A program made the position numbers and the translations under genes. Under the pieces are notes generated by a model. It saw nothing but the letters and a program-made list of their open reading frames with translations. It made no database searches and was not told the origin of the DNA. Positions 8,228 to 14,350 of a DNA stretch of 64,000 nucleotides are shown here, piece after piece (positions within the stretch are counted from its first letter, which is position 1; each line of letters starts with the position of its first letter). This DNA is from Kocuria sp. TGY1127_2. Lineage in GTDB: Bacteria; Actinomycetota; Actinomycetes; Actinomycetales; Micrococcaceae. The stretch lies in contig NZ_AP022834.1 of NCBI RefSeq assembly GCF_013394385.1, forward strand, positions 1,302,001 through 1,366,000, written 5' to 3'.

Positions 8228-8947
8228 GTGATCACTCAGCGCAAGACCGCCTCTGGAAAACTAGGTGGTTTCGAGCCCGGTCTACAGGCCGGCGGAATGA
8301 CAATGGTGATTATGGCCCGAAGCTTCCGTGCCACGGACGAAGAGCCCCGGGATCCTGAAGTGGCGGAAGCCGTCAGGGCCTCGGAAAGCGAGCACGATCT
8401 GCTCGAAGCCTTGATGGGCTGTGCCTCGAGGGGCAACCAGAACTGTTTTGAGCGCTTGTACGACCTGCTGGTTCCTCGGATTTATGGTCTCGTCCAGCGC
8501 ATTCTGCGCAACCGTTCCCACGCCGAGGAAGTCACCCAGGAAGTCTTCCTCGAGGTGTGGCAGAAAGCTCCTCAATACGATCCTTCCCGCGGCGCGGTGG
8601 GATCCTGGGTCACGGTGATTGCCCATCGCCGGGCGGTGGACAGGGTCCGTGCGACACAGTCGGCCTGGGATCGGGAGATGCGCACGGGGAAAACCGAGTT
8701 CAGGGAAACGTATGAGCACGTCGAGTCCACCGTCCAGCAGAGCCTCGAGAGCGAATCCGTTCACGCGGCCCTCTCGCGTGTACCGCAAACCCAGGTAGAG
8801 GTGATGACATTGGCGTACTTTGGCGGCTTGTCCCAGAGCAAGATCGCCACAATGTTGGAGATACCGCTGGGCACGGTGAAAACGAGAATGAGACAGGGAT
8901 TGAAGCGGCTACGGTCCGAGTTGGGAGGCGAATATGAAGCGAGTTGA
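8228..8947 (+). CDS. sigK: ECF sigma factor, SigK type
   Basis: An extracytoplasmic-function sigma factor. Region 2 is seen in NCFERLYDLLVPRIYGLVQR and HAEEVTQEVFLEVWQKAPQY, and region 4 in LSQSKIATMLEIPLGTVKTR, a helix-turn-helix that would bind the -35 element. SigK identity rests on the RskA-type anti-sigma gene immediately downstream (14-nt overlap). The start is uncertain: GTG 8228 is the longest frame, while ATG 8297 and ATG 8312 (GGTGA just upstream) are also possible, and the N-terminal 50 residues are not conserved. The preceding 286 nt hold no gene; CCGAAT occurs at 8032 and 8125, resembling the -10 I recall for mycobacterial SigK, but no matching -35 is clear. Confidence 0.88.
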   Translation: MITQRKTASGKLGGFEPGLQAGGMTMVIMARSFRATDEEPRDPEVAEAVRASESEHDLLEALMGCASRGNQNCFERLYDLLVPRIYGLVQRILRNRSHAEEVTQEVFLEVWQKAPQYDPSRGAVGSWVTVIAHRRAVDRVRATQSAWDREMRTGKTEFRETYEHVESTVQQSLESESVHAALSRVPQTQVEVMTLAYFGGLSQSKIATMLEIPLGTVKTRMRQGLKRLRSELGGEYEAS

Positions 8948-9827
8948 AAATCCTTTGGAGGACGCCGTCGCTGCATATGCGCTCGACGCTCTGGAGCCCG
9001 AGGAGCAGAAAAGATTCGAGGCCGAGGCCTCTCGGGAGCAGAAAGAACTGGCGGATCAATGGAGTCAGGTGGGCGCTGCCCTGGGCCAGTCGATTCCGGC
9101 AGAACAGCCGCCCGCGGCCCTCAAGGAACGGGTGATGCGTCAGATTCAGGCGACTCCACAGCTGAATCGCGTCCCTCGGCACGCAGCTGGAGGAGTGGAC
9201 ACTCTCGAGGAGGACTACCCGTCGAGAGTCTTCCCGGTCGTTTCGGAGCATGACTCTTCGGGCCCGGCCGATGGGAAGTCTCTCAACCAACTGCCTCCGA
9301 ACCGCCTCAAAGCCCGCATCCGTTGGAATGTTGCCTCCGGTGTTGTGGCCGCGGCCTGTGCTGGACTGGCAGTCTTCGCAGGGGTCTGGGGAATGGATCA
9401 GAAGCGTCAGCTCGATGCGACCCGATCCGAACTCTCCGCGGCGCAAGCCCAGTCGAGTTCGTCGACGTCGGTTATTGGCCAGCTCTCCGCGGCCTCCGAT
9501 CTTTCGTTGGCCAAGGGAAATATGGATGGCGCGAATATTTCCGTGATGTATTCCGCCTCGCACAACATGGCGGGAGTCGCGACGAATGATCTCCCGAAAC
9601 TGCCCGAGGGCAAGGTCTACATGATGTGGCTCATGGACAAAGATCATCAGGTCATCGGCAAGGGAGCCCTGAATTCCGGAGAGACCTCCGACTCGGCTTC
9701 GGGCGGTGAAATGACCACCATGACGGACCAGGACCTTCGTGACGTAGCGGCATTCGGTGTGACTGTGGAAAACAAGGACGCGACCTCGCCTACGGGCGAT
9801 CCGTTCATGCTCGAATCCGAAAGCTGA
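8934..9827 (+). CDS. rskA: Anti-sigma-K factor RskA family
   Basis: A membrane-anchored anti-sigma factor of 297 residues. The N-terminal cytoplasmic part (about 1-125) contains the sigma-binding region (DAVAAYALDALEPEEQKRFE). A single membrane helix spans about 131-153, followed by an external RskA domain (about 190-297) with GKVYMMWLMDKD and GAFGVTVENKD-like segments typical of the family. By analogy with the mycobacterial pair it would hold SigK at the membrane until regulated proteolysis releases it. Its start overlaps the sigK 3' end by 14 nt, implying coupled translation. Confidence 0.92.
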   Translation: MKRVENPLEDAVAAYALDALEPEEQKRFEAEASREQKELADQWSQVGAALGQSIPAEQPPAALKERVMRQIQATPQLNRVPRHAAGGVDTLEEDYPSRVFPVVSEHDSSGPADGKSLNQLPPNRLKARIRWNVASGVVAAACAGLAVFAGVWGMDQKRQLDATRSELSAAQAQSSSSTSVIGQLSAASDLSLAKGNMDGANISVMYSASHNMAGVATNDLPKLPEGKVYMMWLMDKDHQVIGKGALNSGETSDSASGGEMTTMTDQDLRDVAAFGVTVENKDATSPTGDPFMLESES

Positions 9828-9876: not shown

Positions 9877-9889
9877 TGAACACTGTTCA
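9877..9889. promoter_or_regulatory. BioQ-like operator upstream of bioY
   Basis: The 13-bp palindrome TGAAC-ACT-GTTCA is perfect and lies 77 nt before the bioY start. It fits the TGAAC-N3-GTTAC-like motif I recall for BioQ, the TetR-family repressor of biotin genes in Corynebacterium and Mycobacterium. Its site ahead of a biotin transporter operon makes that reading likely. bioQ itself is not in the window. Confidence 0.7.
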
Positions 9890-9891
9890 AA

Positions 9892-9906
9892 ATCCGACAG
9901 TCGGAT
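9892..9906. repeat. Second palindrome upstream of bioY
   Basis: ATCCGAC-A-GTCGGAT is a perfect 15-bp inverted repeat, three bases after the BioQ-like site. It could be a second operator, or a short hairpin in the 5' leader. I do not recognise the motif. Confidence 0.5.
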
Positions 9907-9966
9907 TCGACTGGCCCTTCACGGTCTCATGGGCCCACGGCGTCCGTGAAAGAAATGGAGCAGACA

Positions 9967-10560
9967 GTGAGTTCAGTATCCCGTGACACCCCGACGGCCA
10001 CTCCTGCGGCGCCCGCCTCGGCTGCACATTCAATCGCCTACATTGCGGTTTTCGCGGCCCTGGTCGGGGTCCTGGGGATGCCAGGAAACATCCCGCTTCC
10101 CGGGTTGGTCCCGATTACGGCACAAACGTTAGGCGTCATGCTTGCCGGTGCTGTTCTCGGTCCATGGCGGGGCGCATTGTCCATGACGCTGTTCTTGGCG
10201 CTCGTCGCCTTGGGATTGCCATTGCTCTCTGGAGGGCGCGGCGGCTTGGGCGCATTCGTCGGCCCGAGCGCCGGCTATCTCGTTGCGTGGATCCTGGGAG
10301 CGGCTGTGGTCGGCGTCGTCGTGCGAGCAGGAAATGGGCGCCCCACATGGGTTAAAGTATCTGTTGGCTGCATCCTCGGAGGCATGATCTCGCTCTACGC
10401 AGTCGGAATACCCGTGCAGGCGGCCGTGACCGGAATGTCCTTGGCCCAGACCGCTACGGCATCGCTGCTTTTCCTCCCCGGCGATCTCATCAAGGTCGTT
10501 ATCGCCACTCTCGTGACCATGGGGCTCTGGAAGGCCTACCCGAGAGCATTCCAGAAGTGA
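9967..10560 (+). CDS. bioY: Biotin transporter substrate-binding subunit BioY
   Basis: The S-component of an ECF-type biotin transporter: a six-helix membrane protein that binds biotin and docks to BioM/BioN. Family marks are GNIPLPGLVPITAQTLGVML (about residues 37-56), the glycine-rich GGRGGLGAFVGPSAGYLVA and the C-terminal LFLPGDLIKVVIA. I chose GTG 9967 because GGAG lies 6 nt upstream; a GTG at 9946 is in frame without such a site. The mature N-terminus begins with a Thr/Pro/Ala-rich stretch. It heads a five-gene operon; its stop overlaps the ligase start (GTGA). Confidence 0.95.
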   Translation: MSSVSRDTPTATPAAPASAAHSIAYIAVFAALVGVLGMPGNIPLPGLVPITAQTLGVMLAGAVLGPWRGALSMTLFLALVALGLPLLSGGRGGLGAFVGPSAGYLVAWILGAAVVGVVVRAGNGRPTWVKVSVGCILGGMISLYAVGIPVQAAVTGMSLAQTATASLLFLPGDLIKVVIATLVTMGLWKAYPRAFQK

Positions 10561-11705
10561 CACCAACGGACGGCGACATTTCCCCGCATCGTATCCGCGT
10601 CGTGAAGGGGCGGGATCACGGACACGTTCTGCGAGAAGCGCTGTCCATCCGGCGCAAGGGAGGCGTCCCTCTCGTCGGTGACGAGCGCTGGAGCGAAGCT
10701 CGATGGAATTCTTTGGTCAAGAGGGCTTCCGAAGCAAGAGTTCCGAGCCAGGCAGCGTGGGCCGCCCTGACGTCCGGCACTACAGGGGAACCACGCATCG
10801 TCGTGAGAACCCAACACTCTTGGGATATCTCATATCCGGGTCTGAACCGATTGGCGAAGATCGGTTCAGAGGACCTGATGCTGATCCCCGTCCACCCGGT
10901 CTCGTCCATGGCTACCTATGCTGCGTCCCACGCAGAATTCACAGGGTTCCGCTTCCACGTTCCGAGGACGCGCCGAATCGTTCCCGATGACATCGCCCAA
11001 ACCACGGTCATGCACGGCACCCCGTGGCACCTGCGAGACGTAGTCGACCTCCTCGACGCCGGCCACCCGACGGCTCTGAAGTCCGCGATCGTCGGAGGAG
11101 ACAGACTGCCTGCGCCGCTCAGGGTTAGAGCCGAGGACCACGGACTGCACGTCGTGAGCTACTTTGGCGCAGCAGAGCTGTCCCTGGTGGCCGCCGACGC
11201 CGGGGATGGTCTCCGTGCCTTCCCCGGTGTAGATCTTGAAATCCGGGACGGCATCCTCTGGGTCCGGACAAGTCAACGCGCACTTGCCGTACTGGGCACC
11301 GGTAGTGGCCTCAGAGCCGACGGGCCATGGGCAACAGTCGGAGACAGGGCAAGACTCAACGATGGTCTGCTGGAGCTTCACGGTCGTGACGATGACGCCA
11401 TTCTCACGGCGGGAGCCACCGTCATACCCGCCGAGGTCGAAGATGTGCTCAACTCGATGCCGGGAGTATCCGCCTCACTCGTACTCGGCATCCCCAACGG
11501 GCGTGCCGGGCATCTGGTGGCCGCGGCCATCGAGACGAACCGGATAGAGAGCCCGCCACCATTGACGTCCATTCAAGACATGGCCCGGCGTCATCTGACC
11601 CCAGCTCAGCTTCCCAGGCTATGGAAAACATGCGAATACCTGCCTCGAACAGGGGTCGGCAAAATCCGGCGACTCTCGCCCGAAGAATTCCAGGCGCTTC
11701 GCTGA
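10557..11705 (+). CDS. Short AMP-forming acyl-CoA ligase in biotin operon
   Basis: An adenylate-forming (ANL superfamily) enzyme of 382 residues, expected to activate a carboxylate as acyl-AMP and join it to CoA. Core motifs are visible: ATP-binding LTSGTTGEPR (71-80), YFGAAELS, the GDRARLNDGLLELHGRDDD hinge region and the C-terminal catalytic lysine in TGVGKIRR (Lys369). It lacks the N-terminal 120-150 residues of ordinary fatty acyl-CoA ligases, and its length matches actinobacterial MenE. There is no menaquinone gene nearby and it is translationally coupled to bioY, so a MenE label is doubtful. The substrate is unknown; pimelate or another biotin-related acid is a guess from context. Confidence 0.82.
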   Translation: MTPTDGDISPHRIRVVKGRDHGHVLREALSIRRKGGVPLVGDERWSEARWNSLVKRASEARVPSQAAWAALTSGTTGEPRIVVRTQHSWDISYPGLNRLAKIGSEDLMLIPVHPVSSMATYAASHAEFTGFRFHVPRTRRIVPDDIAQTTVMHGTPWHLRDVVDLLDAGHPTALKSAIVGGDRLPAPLRVRAEDHGLHVVSYFGAAELSLVAADAGDGLRAFPGVDLEIRDGILWVRTSQRALAVLGTGSGLRADGPWATVGDRARLNDGLLELHGRDDDAILTAGATVIPAEVEDVLNSMPGVSASLVLGIPNGRAGHLVAAAIETNRIESPPPLTSIQDMARRHLTPAQLPRLWKTCEYLPRTGVGKIRRLSPEEFQALR

Positions 11706-11760
11706 ACACACCGTTAGCTGGTAATCCATAGCCCTGCGAACGGCTACTACAAGGAATCCC

Positions 11761-12882
11761 ATGCAGAACATTGCCATAACAGCCGGGCTCCGGACCCCCA
11801 TCACCGGTCGATCACGCGCGCTCGCGGACTACGGTGTCGAAGAATTGGCCGCCATGGTCTTGGCAGAATTGGCAACGACAACCGGCCAGCGCCCAGTCGG
11901 TGTGATACTCGGCAATTGCACCGGCCCAGGGGGCAACCTCGGACGGAATGCGGCATTGGCTGCGGGGTTCGGCCAAGAGTGCATAGGTTGGGGTATCGAC
12001 GCTCAGTGCGGTTCTGGTTTGGCCGCCGTCCAACAGGCCATGCATCACGTCGCGGCCACAAGAGCGACCATGATCGCCGGCGGAGCCGAATCCGCGTCGA
12101 CCGCTCCGACGCGTTCGCACCACGGAGTTCCGTTTGCACGGGCACGTTTTGCGCCCCGCGGATTCCCCGATCCGGACATGATCGAAGCCGCCGACGAGCT
12201 GGCCCACCTGAAGGGCATCTCACGCGAAAGCCAAGAATCCTTTGCGGAGCGCAGTCACGAGCTTTCCTTAGGAGCGAAGTCTTTCCTCCGAGCAGAGACG
12301 GTCTCCGTGGCCCGGGACCCGGCCGGTACAACGATTATTGACGATGGTCCGCGGCGCCTCGGGAGCAACGCCCTCCGACGCTTTTCACCTGTTTCCGACG
12401 CGCCGAGTGCCACGGTCACCCCAGGCACCACCGCGCGCATTTCGGACGGTGCAGCGGGCGTCGTCGTGACAACCCAGGACAGTATCACCGGCCCCCACTG
12501 GAAGGTCCTGGCCTCGACAATGACCGGGGGAGACCCGTCTCTTCCCGGGATCGTACCGGTAGCAGCAACCCGTGAGGCCCTGGACAGAGCAGGCCTGAGG
12601 ATCGACGATCTGCAGGCCATCGAGGTCGTCGAGGCATTCGCGGCGCAAGCTCTCGCGGTACTCGACGCTCTGGGGATGAGCCATCATGGAGAGATCGACC
12701 CACGAGTCAACTCGTGGGGCGGCGCTCTGGCTTTGGGTCATCCATGGGGCGCATCCGGAGCAGTGAGCCTCGTGAGACTCCTGCACCGACTCAGACATGA
12801 AGGACCTGGTTCCCTGGGGCTGACAACCTGCGCCATTGGCGGAGGGATGGGCGCAACAATGATTCTGGAGTACGTGGAATGA
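11761..12882 (+). CDS. Thiolase family acyltransferase in biotin operon
   Basis: A degradative/biosynthetic-type thiolase of 373 residues, expected to cleave or condense acyl-CoA thioesters. The nucleophile is Cys83 in DAQCGSGLAAV, the catalytic histidine His327 in GGALALGHPWGASGA and the second cysteine Cys357 in LTTCAIGGGMGA. One change stands out: the usual N-E-A-F motif reads V-E-A-F (VEVVEAFAAQ), losing the asparagine that normally holds an active-site water. No dehydrogenase or hydratase of beta-oxidation is nearby. It lies 55 nt after the ligase and its stop overlaps the bioM start (ATGA). Confidence 0.85.
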   Translation: MQNIAITAGLRTPITGRSRALADYGVEELAAMVLAELATTTGQRPVGVILGNCTGPGGNLGRNAALAAGFGQECIGWGIDAQCGSGLAAVQQAMHHVAATRATMIAGGAESASTAPTRSHHGVPFARARFAPRGFPDPDMIEAADELAHLKGISRESQESFAERSHELSLGAKSFLRAETVSVARDPAGTTIIDDGPRRLGSNALRRFSPVSDAPSATVTPGTTARISDGAAGVVVTTQDSITGPHWKVLASTMTGGDPSLPGIVPVAATREALDRAGLRIDDLQAIEVVEAFAAQALAVLDALGMSHHGEIDPRVNSWGGALALGHPWGASGAVSLVRLLHRLRHEGPGSLGLTTCAIGGGMGATMILEYVE

Positions 12883-13571
12883 GCATCAGCATTGAGAATT
12901 TGCGCGTCGAGGCGGACGGACCCGAGGGGCACACCGTCCTGCTGGACGGAGTCACCACAACTCTGGAGGCGCCTCGCATTGCGATTATCGGCGAGAACGG
13001 CTCCGGCAAGTCGACACTGACCAAAGCAATAGCGGGGCTTGTGCGTCCTTCCTCCGGTTATGTGACGGTGAACGGGATCGATTCCGTCAAGAACGTCAAA
13101 CGGCTACGGCGCGCAGTGGGCTTCGTCTTCGCCAATCCGGGAGCGCAAACCATCATGCCCACGGTTCGCGAAGACATAGCTCTCACGTTGCGCGGACGCA
13201 GGCTCACCCGGGAAGAGACCGCGGCCAAGGTCGAGGAAGCCATCCGACTGCACGAACTCGAGGACCTCGCCGAACGGCCCTGCCACGCTCTCTCCAGCGG
13301 ACAGATGCAACGCCTCGCTCTGTGCTCGGTGCTCGTGGGGGAACCGGATCTCGTCATTGCCGACGAACCCACAAGCCTCTTGGATGCACGGCACCGCAGA
13401 ATCATCGCGCGTCGCCTCCTCGAGCCGGCGGCCCCACAAGTTCTCTTGGTAACTCACGACCTGGACCTCGCCCGTCGCTGCGACCAGGCAATTCTCATCG
13501 CCGACGGAAAACTCGCAGCACAAGGCGAGCCGGCCGAAGTCATCGAAACCTACGAACGGGTCTTGGCATGA
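12879..13571 (+). CDS. bioM: Biotin ECF transporter ATPase BioM
   Basis: The ATP-binding subunit that powers biotin uptake with BioY and BioN. Walker A is GENGSGKST (residues 38-46), the ABC signature LSSGQMQRLAL, Walker B LVIADEPTSLLD and the switch histidine in LLVTHDLDLA. At 230 residues it is the short single-domain form, as in known BioM proteins. Coupled by ATGA overlaps to both the thiolase before it and bioN after it. Confidence 0.95.
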   Translation: MSISIENLRVEADGPEGHTVLLDGVTTTLEAPRIAIIGENGSGKSTLTKAIAGLVRPSSGYVTVNGIDSVKNVKRLRRAVGFVFANPGAQTIMPTVREDIALTLRGRRLTREETAAKVEEAIRLHELEDLAERPCHALSSGQMQRLALCSVLVGEPDLVIADEPTSLLDARHRRIIARRLLEPAAPQVLLVTHDLDLARRCDQAILIADGKLAAQGEPAEVIETYERVLA

Positions 13572-14182
13572 TCTCGCTCTACTACCCGGGATACAGCTTC
13601 GTCCACCGCCTCCCGGCAGGCGTCAAGCTGTTGCTCTTTGCGCTCTTCGCTCTGGCGCTCTCCTTGGCCCCCGCGACCTGGTGGACCATCGGCGTATGTA
13701 TTGCCATAGCGCCCGCGGGCTACGCGCTCGCAGGCTTGGGTATAGGGCTGTTTCTGCGCGATCTGAGAGGACTTGTCGTGTTGGTTGCCTTTCTGGCCGT
13801 GACACAGGCCGTTTTCCTTGAGCCCTTGGAAGCGGTCCGTAATACGGTCCGGGTGATTTCGGTGATCATGCTGGCTCAGGTGGTCACGCGCACGACTCCC
13901 GTGCAAGGCATGATCGAAACCTGTGAACGCGTACTCGGACCCTTCCGGCGTCTTGGAATCAACCCGGAACGGGTCGGATTGGCCATGGCCCTGACCTTAA
14001 CCTCGGTCAACCAATTGGGCGGGATCATCCGCGAAGTCCGGGACGCACAGAAGGCTCGAGGGGCCCGGATTGCTCCTTGGGCGTGGGTCATGCCGGTTCT
14101 GGTGTTGACGCTCCAGCACGCGGACCAGGTCGGGGATGCGTTGGAAGCCAGAGGAATCGGTGGTGCAGACGAGGCGGAGTGA
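13568..14182 (+). CDS. bioN: Biotin ECF transporter transmembrane subunit BioN
   Basis: The EcfT-type membrane coupling subunit of the biotin transporter, 204 residues with four or five membrane helices (about 18-35, 37-62, 66-85, 95-108 and near 172-183). The two short Ala-Arg-Gly motifs that contact the ATPases are present at residues 163-165 and 194-196. The ATG at 13568 overlaps the bioM stop and fits the family start (MISLYYPGYSFVHRLPAG). A much longer frame on the same strand is out of frame with bioM's protein and has no support. Confidence 0.94.
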   Translation: MISLYYPGYSFVHRLPAGVKLLLFALFALALSLAPATWWTIGVCIAIAPAGYALAGLGIGLFLRDLRGLVVLVAFLAVTQAVFLEPLEAVRNTVRVISVIMLAQVVTRTTPVQGMIETCERVLGPFRRLGINPERVGLAMALTLTSVNQLGGIIREVRDAQKARGARIAPWAWVMPVLVLTLQHADQVGDALEARGIGGADEAE

Positions 14183-14216
14183 GACCGGCCGAGAGTTCCG
14201 TTACGGTATACAGAAA

Positions 14217-14270
14217 ACGAGGCCCGAATGCTTGCGTCCAGGGAATCCTGCGGCAACATTCGGGCCTCGT
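14217..14270. terminator. Terminator between bioN and tRNA-His
   Basis: A perfect 14-bp stem (arm ACGAGGCCCGAATG) around a 26-nt loop that holds its own small hairpin (CAGG/CCTG). On the minus strand the stem is followed by TTTTC, so it best serves tRNA-His; it also lies 35 nt past bioN and could act on both. Confidence 0.85.
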
Positions 14271-14273
14271 ACT

Positions 14274-14350
14274 TGGGGTGAGCGACGGGGGTTGAACCCG
14301 CGACCTCCTGGACCACAACCAGGCGCTCTGCCGACTGAGCTACGCCCACC
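14274..14350 (-). tRNA. tRNA-His (GTG)
   Basis: Read on the minus strand: acceptor GTGGGCG pairs with CGCTCAC, the anticodon loop TTGTGGT carries GTG, and the T arm reads GGGTTCAACCC. The extra 5' G (position 14350) opposite the discriminator C is the His identity mark. CCA is encoded at the 3' end (14276-14274). Confidence 0.97.

Follow-up and report, generated by a model that had tools for sequence, protein, structure and literature searches.

Within a 64,000-nucleotide stretch of the genome of Kocuria sp. TGY1127_2 (contig NZ_AP022834.1, positions 1,302,001 to 1,366,000 of the forward strand; hereafter the window), the genes of a biotin-type energy-coupling factor (ECF) transporter, bioY, bioM and bioN, share an operon with two enzyme genes, which encode a short acyl-coenzyme A (CoA) ligase of the ANL family and a thiolase-like protein. 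We tentatively propose that these two enzymes, referred to below as the pair, act as a relay in which biotin or a similar acid would undergo CoA activation and acyl transfer. By the data presented here, this actinobacterial pair is tied to one transporter lineage, appears set apart from biotin synthesis, and includes a thiolase half whose predicted active site is not that of the textbook enzyme.

The operon and its conservation

Five open reading frames (ORFs) on the + strand, spanning window positions 9967-14182, encode BioY, the ligase, the thiolase-like protein, BioM and BioN in that order (Table 1). A first-pass annotation, made from the letters of this DNA alone, had described the five genes as running in one direction with overlaps at three of the four junctions, and this arrangement was confirmed by the ORF coordinates and Pfam matches. 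Genuine overlaps are formed by GTGA at 10557 and by ATGA at 12879 and 13568. Only the ligase and thiolase genes do not overlap; a gap of 55 bases separates them. The operon BioY matched L. lactis BioY (4dve, 2.7e-23) and retained the PGDxxK motif. According to this match and to Pfam, the genes for BioY, BioM and BioN are all present together, and the gene set of the ECF transporter BioYMN is complete.

A scan of a genome contig collection with the thiolase alignment returned 66 loci, all titled Actinomycetota. The pair, or its visible part, adjoined bioY, bioM or bioN genes at 61 of them. The prospect raised with the first-pass annotation, that relatives would not keep the enzymes beside bioYMN, is thus not what was found. 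Among the 61 loci, 47 had bioY, ligase and thiolase in this order with bioM and/or bioN behind them, all on the same strand, six were cut by contig ends but were consistent with this order, and eight were convergent or rearranged. The other five were two fragments (L141 and L162) and three loci without bioYMN beside the pair (L125, L143 and L165). At the Sanguibacter gelidistatuariae locus (L143:4268-5946), phosphoenolpyruvate-mutase-like and M24-peptidase genes lay between ligase and thiolase, and the same genome had two BioY matches elsewhere.

In 27 loci from a search of the family, bioY, ligase and thiolase were kept together in every case, and bioM followed within a short stretch in 26 (none was seen in L055). 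In one relative from the genus (L042:10266-11636, genome G011), the match to the thiolase gene fell into two separate pieces; therefore, an insertion or an assembly fault is possible at this locus. A plasmid collection searched at 1e-30 yielded one record, from Nonomuraea. Finally, a draw of 296 genomes across the phylum contained five pair thiolases of at least 490 bits, too few for a co-occurrence analysis, and was used as the source of the ordinary-thiolase controls described below; one locus from this draw (L170, genome G495) carries a thiolase-only version of the operon. Altogether, the position of the pair next to bioYMN is not a chance arrangement, and the pair is old.

Inheritance with one BioY lineage

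BioY was present in 35 of 35 genomes of the genus. In the 13 pair-less genus genomes for which the BioY locus was fetched, bioM came after bioY, as did bioN except at one locus cut by a contig end. BioY and BioM of these genomes were 33-41% identical to the window proteins (33-38% for BioY alone, 13 genomes), and BioY of the six pair-bearing genus relatives was 56-97% identical to window BioY. The genes flanking the window operon, def and orn-mptB, were kept in six and four of these six relatives, respectively. In all five pair-less genomes examined, none of the genes flanking the window operon lay within 13 kb of the transporter. A simple loss of the pair from one operon common to the genus was therefore rejected, since pair-less BioYMN belongs to a different lineage and, in 5/5 genomes examined, occupies a different locus.

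A tree of 77 BioY sequences, each longer than 150 amino acids, divided at a 100/100 branch into groups of 59 and 18. On the larger side, 58 BioY had the pair inside or beside their operon and one (L210) had it elsewhere in the genome. The smaller side comprised the 13 pair-less genus sequences and five connected with a second sub-lineage of the pair, which lies elsewhere in the genome for two of them (L211 and L213) and adjacent for the other three. At these last three loci (L199, L201 and L202) the second sub-lineage was convergent on bioYMN of the other BioY lineage, and adjoined an apparent suf operon, as judged by eye. Asp172 and Lys175 of BioY were found in 77/77 sequences and do not separate the two lineages. 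The position facing the Asn of the L. lactis TGGNGG motif, a residue which we take to bind biotin, was Arg in all 61 sequences with the pair inside the operon or convergent on it; among the remaining 16, Lys or Arg predominated. Inheritance of the main pair lineage goes together with one particular transporter lineage. This co-inheritance supports a substrate or task shared by transporter and pair, without proving it.

An altered thiolase

Fingerprint positions were compared between 89 pair thiolases, near-identical relatives included, and 37 ordinary thiolases; L162 and L141 were excluded as fragments, and sequences of 300 amino acids or fewer were left unaligned. The nucleophilic Cys of the CxS motif (Cys83) and the His of the GHP motif (His327) were present in 89/89 pair thiolases and 37/37 ordinary ones. 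The base Cys of the CxG motif (Cys378 in Zoogloea), found in every ordinary thiolase, was replaced by Ala in 64 and by Ser in 25 of the 89 pair thiolases. The NEAF Asn, likewise present in 37/37 ordinary sequences, was lost in 73 of the 89 (Val 69, Thr 3, Ile 1; Asn kept in 16), and is Val in the window thiolase. Moreover, the Met of the VMG motif (35/37 ordinary) was Pro in 88/89 pair thiolases, and the residue after GHP, which is Leu, Val or Ile in 37/37 ordinary thiolases, was Trp in 89/89. In the available text of PMC3406046, Cys378 is described as the proton-abstracting base, and Asn316 and His348 as the oxyanion hole; a work cited there, known from its title, reports that changing Cys378 to Ser altered acetyl-enzyme partitioning.

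As read from these alignments, the acyl-loading parts of the pair thiolase are kept and the parts for carbon-carbon chemistry are changed. The textbook thiolase mechanism is therefore unlikely, and the protein is better described as a putative acyl transferase. Processing of a degraded biotin side chain had been suggested in the first-pass annotation; ordinary thiolytic trimming of this kind is unlikely because the catalytic base is lost in all 89 pair thiolases. Salvage of degraded or altered biotin may still be a task of the pair. A shifted Cys acting as replacement base was rejected for the group since Cys357, one residue before the lost base, occurs in only 16/89 sequences; it may still serve in the window protein.

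The AlphaFold2 model of the window thiolase (predicted local distance difference test, pLDDT, 95) has a thiolase fold, with Foldseek TMq values of 0.86-0.92 among the matches listed. In a quick tree, 40 pair thiolases from both sub-lineages fell on one side of a branch with SH-aLRT 100, and 16 ordinary thiolases on the other. The second sub-lineage occurs in other genera of the family. At L199, L201 and L202 it displays GHAYG, GHAYA or GHPYG, keeps the Asn and has Ser at the base position; this Ser was read by eye in 5/5 members of the sub-lineage.

The acyl-CoA ligase

The predicted catalytic residue set of the ligase is complete. E207 (A5), D263 (A7), R277 (A8) and K369 (A10) were found in 86/86 aligned sequences, and the P-loop residues Ser73 and Gly74 in 83/86 and 84/86, respectively. 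The window ligase has 382 amino acids, and its relatives, with starts estimated by rule, mostly have about 340-410 or 440-500. The N-terminal subdomain of the window protein may be incomplete, as the alignment places profile position 58 opposite MenE residues 139-141. Short forms are not barred from the ANL family, since one MenE model (PRK07824) has 362 positions. The AlphaFold2 model (pLDDT 90) fits ANL enzymes, and the top TMq among the matches listed was 0.82, to the thioester-forming state of 4-chlorobenzoyl-CoA ligase (3cw9). None of the curated models listed was matched above its cut-off.

Biotin genes and probable biotin control

The first-pass annotation correctly stated that no bioA, bioB, bioD or bioF lies in the window; matches to all four were found elsewhere in the same genome. 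There, the 5' end of a solitary bioB carries an operator, and bioA, a gene fusing bioF to a cytochrome P450 (bioF::P450) and bioD form an operon behind another BioQ-type operator. The bioA and bioB matches exceed curated cut-offs, and those of bioF and bioD fall short. The P450 half of the fusion matched solved P450s (5gwe, 7.6e-26), and Pfam at 1e-5 gave no P450 match for it. The fusion protein was matched, by its bioF part, its P450 part or both, in 59 of 197 family genomes. Adjacent bioF and P450 matches are common in the family, and a single unbroken frame over both was found in five further genomes. A BioW-BioF fusion is already described in the available text of PMC9544090. Since bioB and bioA-bioF::P450-bioD are found in the genome, the host can probably make biotin from a pimeloyl thioester.

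A perfect TGAAC-N3-GTTCA palindrome stands upstream of bioY in the window (Table 1). This pattern is a predicted BioQ site in actinobacteria, and the identical 13 bases occur in the printed C. glutamicum bioYMN primer (PMC3398298, available text). The whole Kocuria genome contains seven such perfect palindromes, and none of a reversed control pattern. Three are at biotin loci (bioB, bioA and bioY); three others lie inside ORFs with no visible biotin link, and the seventh (L032) falls where two overlapping ORFs end. In related loci we considered a zone from 250 bases before to 30 bases after the estimated bioY start. A palindrome was found there in 15 of the 55 loci with enough upstream sequence, and was tandem in eight of them; no perfect palindrome was found outside these zones in 667 kb of related loci. 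The two tandem copies (L108, L109, L110, L120, L127, L132, L137 and L140, 5/8 Microbacterium) have a spacing of 15 bases and lie at the bioY start or shortly ahead of it.

Because the same palindrome pattern occurs at bioB and before bioA-bioF::P450-bioD, induction of the operon at low biotin is likely, with BioQ as the candidate regulator. The first-pass proposal of an operon switched on at low biotin fits the operator evidence. Its broader claim that the enzymes are tied to biotin status fits as well, as the pair lies in the operon, is conserved with it and stands behind a biotin-type operator.

The pair in genomes with and without apparent biotin synthesis

We surveyed 79 carrier genomes, 49 from the 66 collection loci (15 metagenome-assembled loci, L160 and L162 were left out) and 30 others. 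They include G541 (L141), with a broken thiolase, and G495, without a ligase beside the thiolase. A bioB match at 1e-30 was found in 39/79 carriers, 38 of them above cut-off, and was absent at this threshold in the other 40; bioA exceeded its cut-off in 24/79. Biotin protein ligase was found in 79/79 genomes (78 shared with the bioB survey, G000 replacing G179), and a replacement of this enzyme by the pair was rejected on that ground.

In a draw of 197 family genomes, the pair was not associated with a bioF::P450 match (either half, 1e-60), which was found in 11/34 genomes with the pair and 48/163 without (p = 0.84). The 34 carriers were assigned by score, with neighbourhoods seen for 31; thirteen genomes scoring 240-264 bits were treated as lacking the pair, and 5/5 of those examined carry the second sub-lineage. 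Within the genus, association of the pair with bioF was weakly positive (4/7 vs 4/28, p = 0.03), and the link with bioB was not significant (6/7 vs 12/28, p = 0.09); G022, which has only fragments of the pair, was placed among the non-carriers, and all these p values ignore kinship. All bioF matches in the genus, that of the host genome included, were below the family cut-off, and the pair-bearing genomes G011, G012 and G023 had none.

As many carriers lack a match to bioB, the last enzyme, a pair serving biotin synthesis alone is not expected, and this distribution suggests that the pair is separated from biotin synthesis. A supply of pimeloyl-CoA for BioF, attractive given the bioF::P450 fusion, was rejected since bioF and bioB are missing in many carriers. 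Salvage of a precursor such as pimelate or dethiobiotin, as the first-pass annotation had envisaged, was likewise not supported by the bioB, bioA and bioF::P450 counts.

Interpretation and rival explanations

We propose that the operon is a low-biotin response unit. Biotin scarcity would lift repression at the 9877 operator, and BioY-BioM-BioN would import a vitamin that is a carboxylic acid, for which biotin or a vitamer close to it is the likeliest choice. The ligase would adenylate a carboxylic acid and form its CoA thioester, the imported acid being the simplest candidate. The thiolase-like protein would load the acyl group on Cys83 and pass it to an acceptor other than the acetyl-CoA carbanion, or to water; such an acceptor is expected because the base for Claisen condensation and thiolysis is lost. 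The relay would serve in using or keeping scarce biotin-type acids, and would be neither a biosynthetic nor a beta-oxidation step. The identity of the acid, the acyl acceptor and the benefit of the pair are what we infer from these sequences. A further reading, advanced with more reserve, is that the re-tooled thiolase, the ligase and a dedicated BioY lineage carry out a biotin-using step not yet described, in which biotin, intact or damaged, would be activated with CoA so that it is retained or repaired when scarce; this step would occur across Actinomycetota and perhaps also with the Firmicutes yhfTS. If the pair does handle biotin or altered biotin, it would represent a new enzymatic step in vitamin salvage. 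From the earlier interpretation, the link of the enzymes to biotin scarcity is retained, and the precursor version is probably wrong.

Several points weigh against the proposed relay. Pair-less BioYMN operons exist in 13 genus genomes, and C. glutamicum bioYMN, as described in the available text of PMC3398298, is induced at low biotin and imports biotin without a ligase/thiolase pair; the pair is therefore not needed for uptake. It lies apart from bioYMN in Sanguibacter (L125 and L143) and in one Geodermatophilus (L165), where ligase and thiolase are themselves separated. In G495 of the phylum draw (L170), the altered thiolase comes directly after bioY, with bioMN behind it, and no ligase was matched between bioY and thiolase. 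The window thiolase passes the general thiolase model TIGR01930 (245 vs 240.55 bits), and its Cys357, shared with the other sequences of the 16 noted above, might substitute for the lost base in these species. Among curated models the ligase comes nearest to those for MenE, long-chain fatty acid ligase and acyl-CoA synthetase, and the substrates proposed for both enzymes are putative. Finally, the BioQ palindrome was seen in only 15/55 related loci.

The main rival to the relay, although we consider it rather unlikely, is a biotin-sparing lipid metabolism. At low biotin and low acetyl-CoA carboxylase activity, the ligase would activate fatty acids of external origin or from turnover, the thiolase-like protein would move acyl groups, and less malonyl-CoA would be needed. 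Fatty acids spare biotin, and such a role fits the low-biotin control indicated by the operator, the presence of the pair in genomes without bioB, the missing link to bioF::P450 in the family draw and the similarity of the ligase to fatty-acid ligases. However, it leaves unexplained the tie of the pair to one BioY lineage and its position between bioY and bioM. Moreover, in Foldseek the ligase model was nearer to aryl/cyclic-acid than to long-chain ligases, a result due in part to domain orientation.

Transport of another vitamin is improbable but has a precedent. B. subtilis requires YhfU, a BioY-family protein encoded by the first gene of its BirA-controlled yhfUTS operon, in order to take up pantothenate (PMC11487621, PMC4016012, available text). 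This also counts against the relay, and calls for caution before any biotin-controlled BioY is assumed to carry biotin. By analogy with YhfU/PanU, BioY would import pantothenate, and the pair would act on or together with pantothenate or CoA and link CoA status to biotin status, which would agree with the separation of the pair-linked BioY from the other BioY lineage of the genus. Against it stand the operator pattern common to the operon and the biotin synthesis genes, the dedicated BioMN subunits, a feature shared with the proven biotin transporter of C. glutamicum (PMC3398298, available text), and the absence of any pantothenate gene from the operon.

We regard as very improbable an ordinary beta-oxidation thiolase and ligase placed in the operon by chance, for example to shorten side-chain-extended biotin analogues: the fold and sequence of the thiolase, its TIGR01930 score and the kept acyl-Cys and GHP agree with it, but the base Cys is lost in 89/89 and the NEAF Asn in 73/89, compared with 0/37 in ordinary thiolases, and the second sub-lineage also has Ser at the base in the 5/5 read. 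A precursor route, with the ligase making pimeloyl-CoA (or activating azelate or glutarate) and the thiolase trimming or building the chain for BioF, is scarcely credible: the shared operator pattern of the host bioB and bioA-bioF::P450-bioD and the weak genus-level bioF link speak for it, but it is mostly refuted by the 40/79 carriers with no bioB match, and is further opposed by the three pair-bearing genus genomes with no bioF match, the null result of the family draw and a thiolase without base.

Other features and neighbouring genes

A strong hairpin follows bioN and is possibly the transcript end. On the + strand it has no T-run, and a consensus scan found no + strand terminator there and one on the - strand at 14242-14223. 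Immediately 5' of the operon, window positions 8228-9827 contain genes for a SigK-like extracytoplasmic function sigma factor and an anti-sigma factor, which were found in 2/6 genus relatives (L037 and L038).

Table 1. Features of the bioY operon region and the bioF::P450 fusion gene, in window coordinates unless stated otherwise.
Feature	Position	Strand	Evidence or remark
BioQ-type operator TGAACACTGTTCA	9877..9889	.	perfect TGAAC-N3-GTTCA palindrome
bioY, S-component of ECF transporter	9967..10560	+	PF02632 5e-35; GTG start 9967 or 9946, ORF open from 9946
Short ANL acyl-CoA ligase, 382 amino acids	10557..11705	+	Pfam AMP-binding 3.4e-10, AMP-binding_C 2.4e-5
Thiolase-like protein, 373 amino acids	11761..12882	+	Thiolase_N PF00108 2.7e-25, Thiolase_C PF02803 1.1e-30
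bioM, ECF ATPase	12879..13571	+	ABC_tran 2.4e-28; ECF_ATPase_1 3.8e-52, under that model's cut-off
bioN, ECF T-component	13568..14182	+	CbiQ PF02361 5.5e-11
Strong hairpin 3' of bioN	14217..14270	+	RNA fold -39.2 kcal/mol for 14205-14285, z -4.6
tRNA-His	14274-14349	-	beyond bioN hairpin
bioF (7-keto-8-aminopelargonate, KAPA, synthase)::cytochrome P450 fusion	L034:4006-6303 = own genome C1:1698008-1700302	-	in bioA/bioD operon

Comparison with known systems

Among equivalog models, PRK06690 and PRK07638, which we take to be the YhfS and YhfT families, matched 47/47 pair thiolases and 35/36 pair ligases, respectively. The window proteins scored below the cut-offs of these models, with 222 bits against 498 for the thiolase and 85 against 518 for the ligase. 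BirA, together with biotin, is the repressor of bioY-type genes and of yhfT-yhfS in B. subtilis and S. aureus; yhfT and yhfS are named by homology as a putative fatty-acid ligase and an acetyl-CoA acetyltransferase (PMC4016012, PMC6391492, PMC7235819, PMC11089781, available text). As far as these texts go, the biotin-controlled pair of Bacillus and Staphylococcus is named by homology alone, and the data presented here make this annotation assayable. Within the available text of the open-licence papers found by our literature search, nothing was found on the lost thiolase base or on the function of the pair; among open-licence papers, the search also found none linking vraA/vraB with biotin and none on bisnorbiotin salvage.

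In layout the window operon resembles yhfUTS of B. subtilis and bioY with yhfT-yhfS of S. aureus, as it combines a BioY-family gene, a ligase, an acetyltransferase homologue and, probably, biotin control. Unlike yhfUTS, it has a BioQ-type operator, dedicated bioM and bioN genes and a short ligase. With C. glutamicum bioYMN it shares the ECF transporter genes bioY, bioM and bioN and the identical 13-base palindrome, whereas the C. glutamicum operon consists of these three genes only. The thiolase-like protein has the fold, nucleophilic Cys and GHP His of the biosynthetic/T1 thiolases (Zoogloea ramigera, MSM-13), but differs from them in the change of Cys378 to Ala or Ser, of Asn316 to Val and of Met288 to Pro, and in a shortened loop. 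Finally, like M. smegmatis TLP1 and other thiolase-like proteins described in the available text of PMC3406046, it combines a thiolase fold with lost thiolase fingerprints; TLP1 keeps no catalytic residues according to the same text, whereas the window protein retains the acyl-Cys and GHP.

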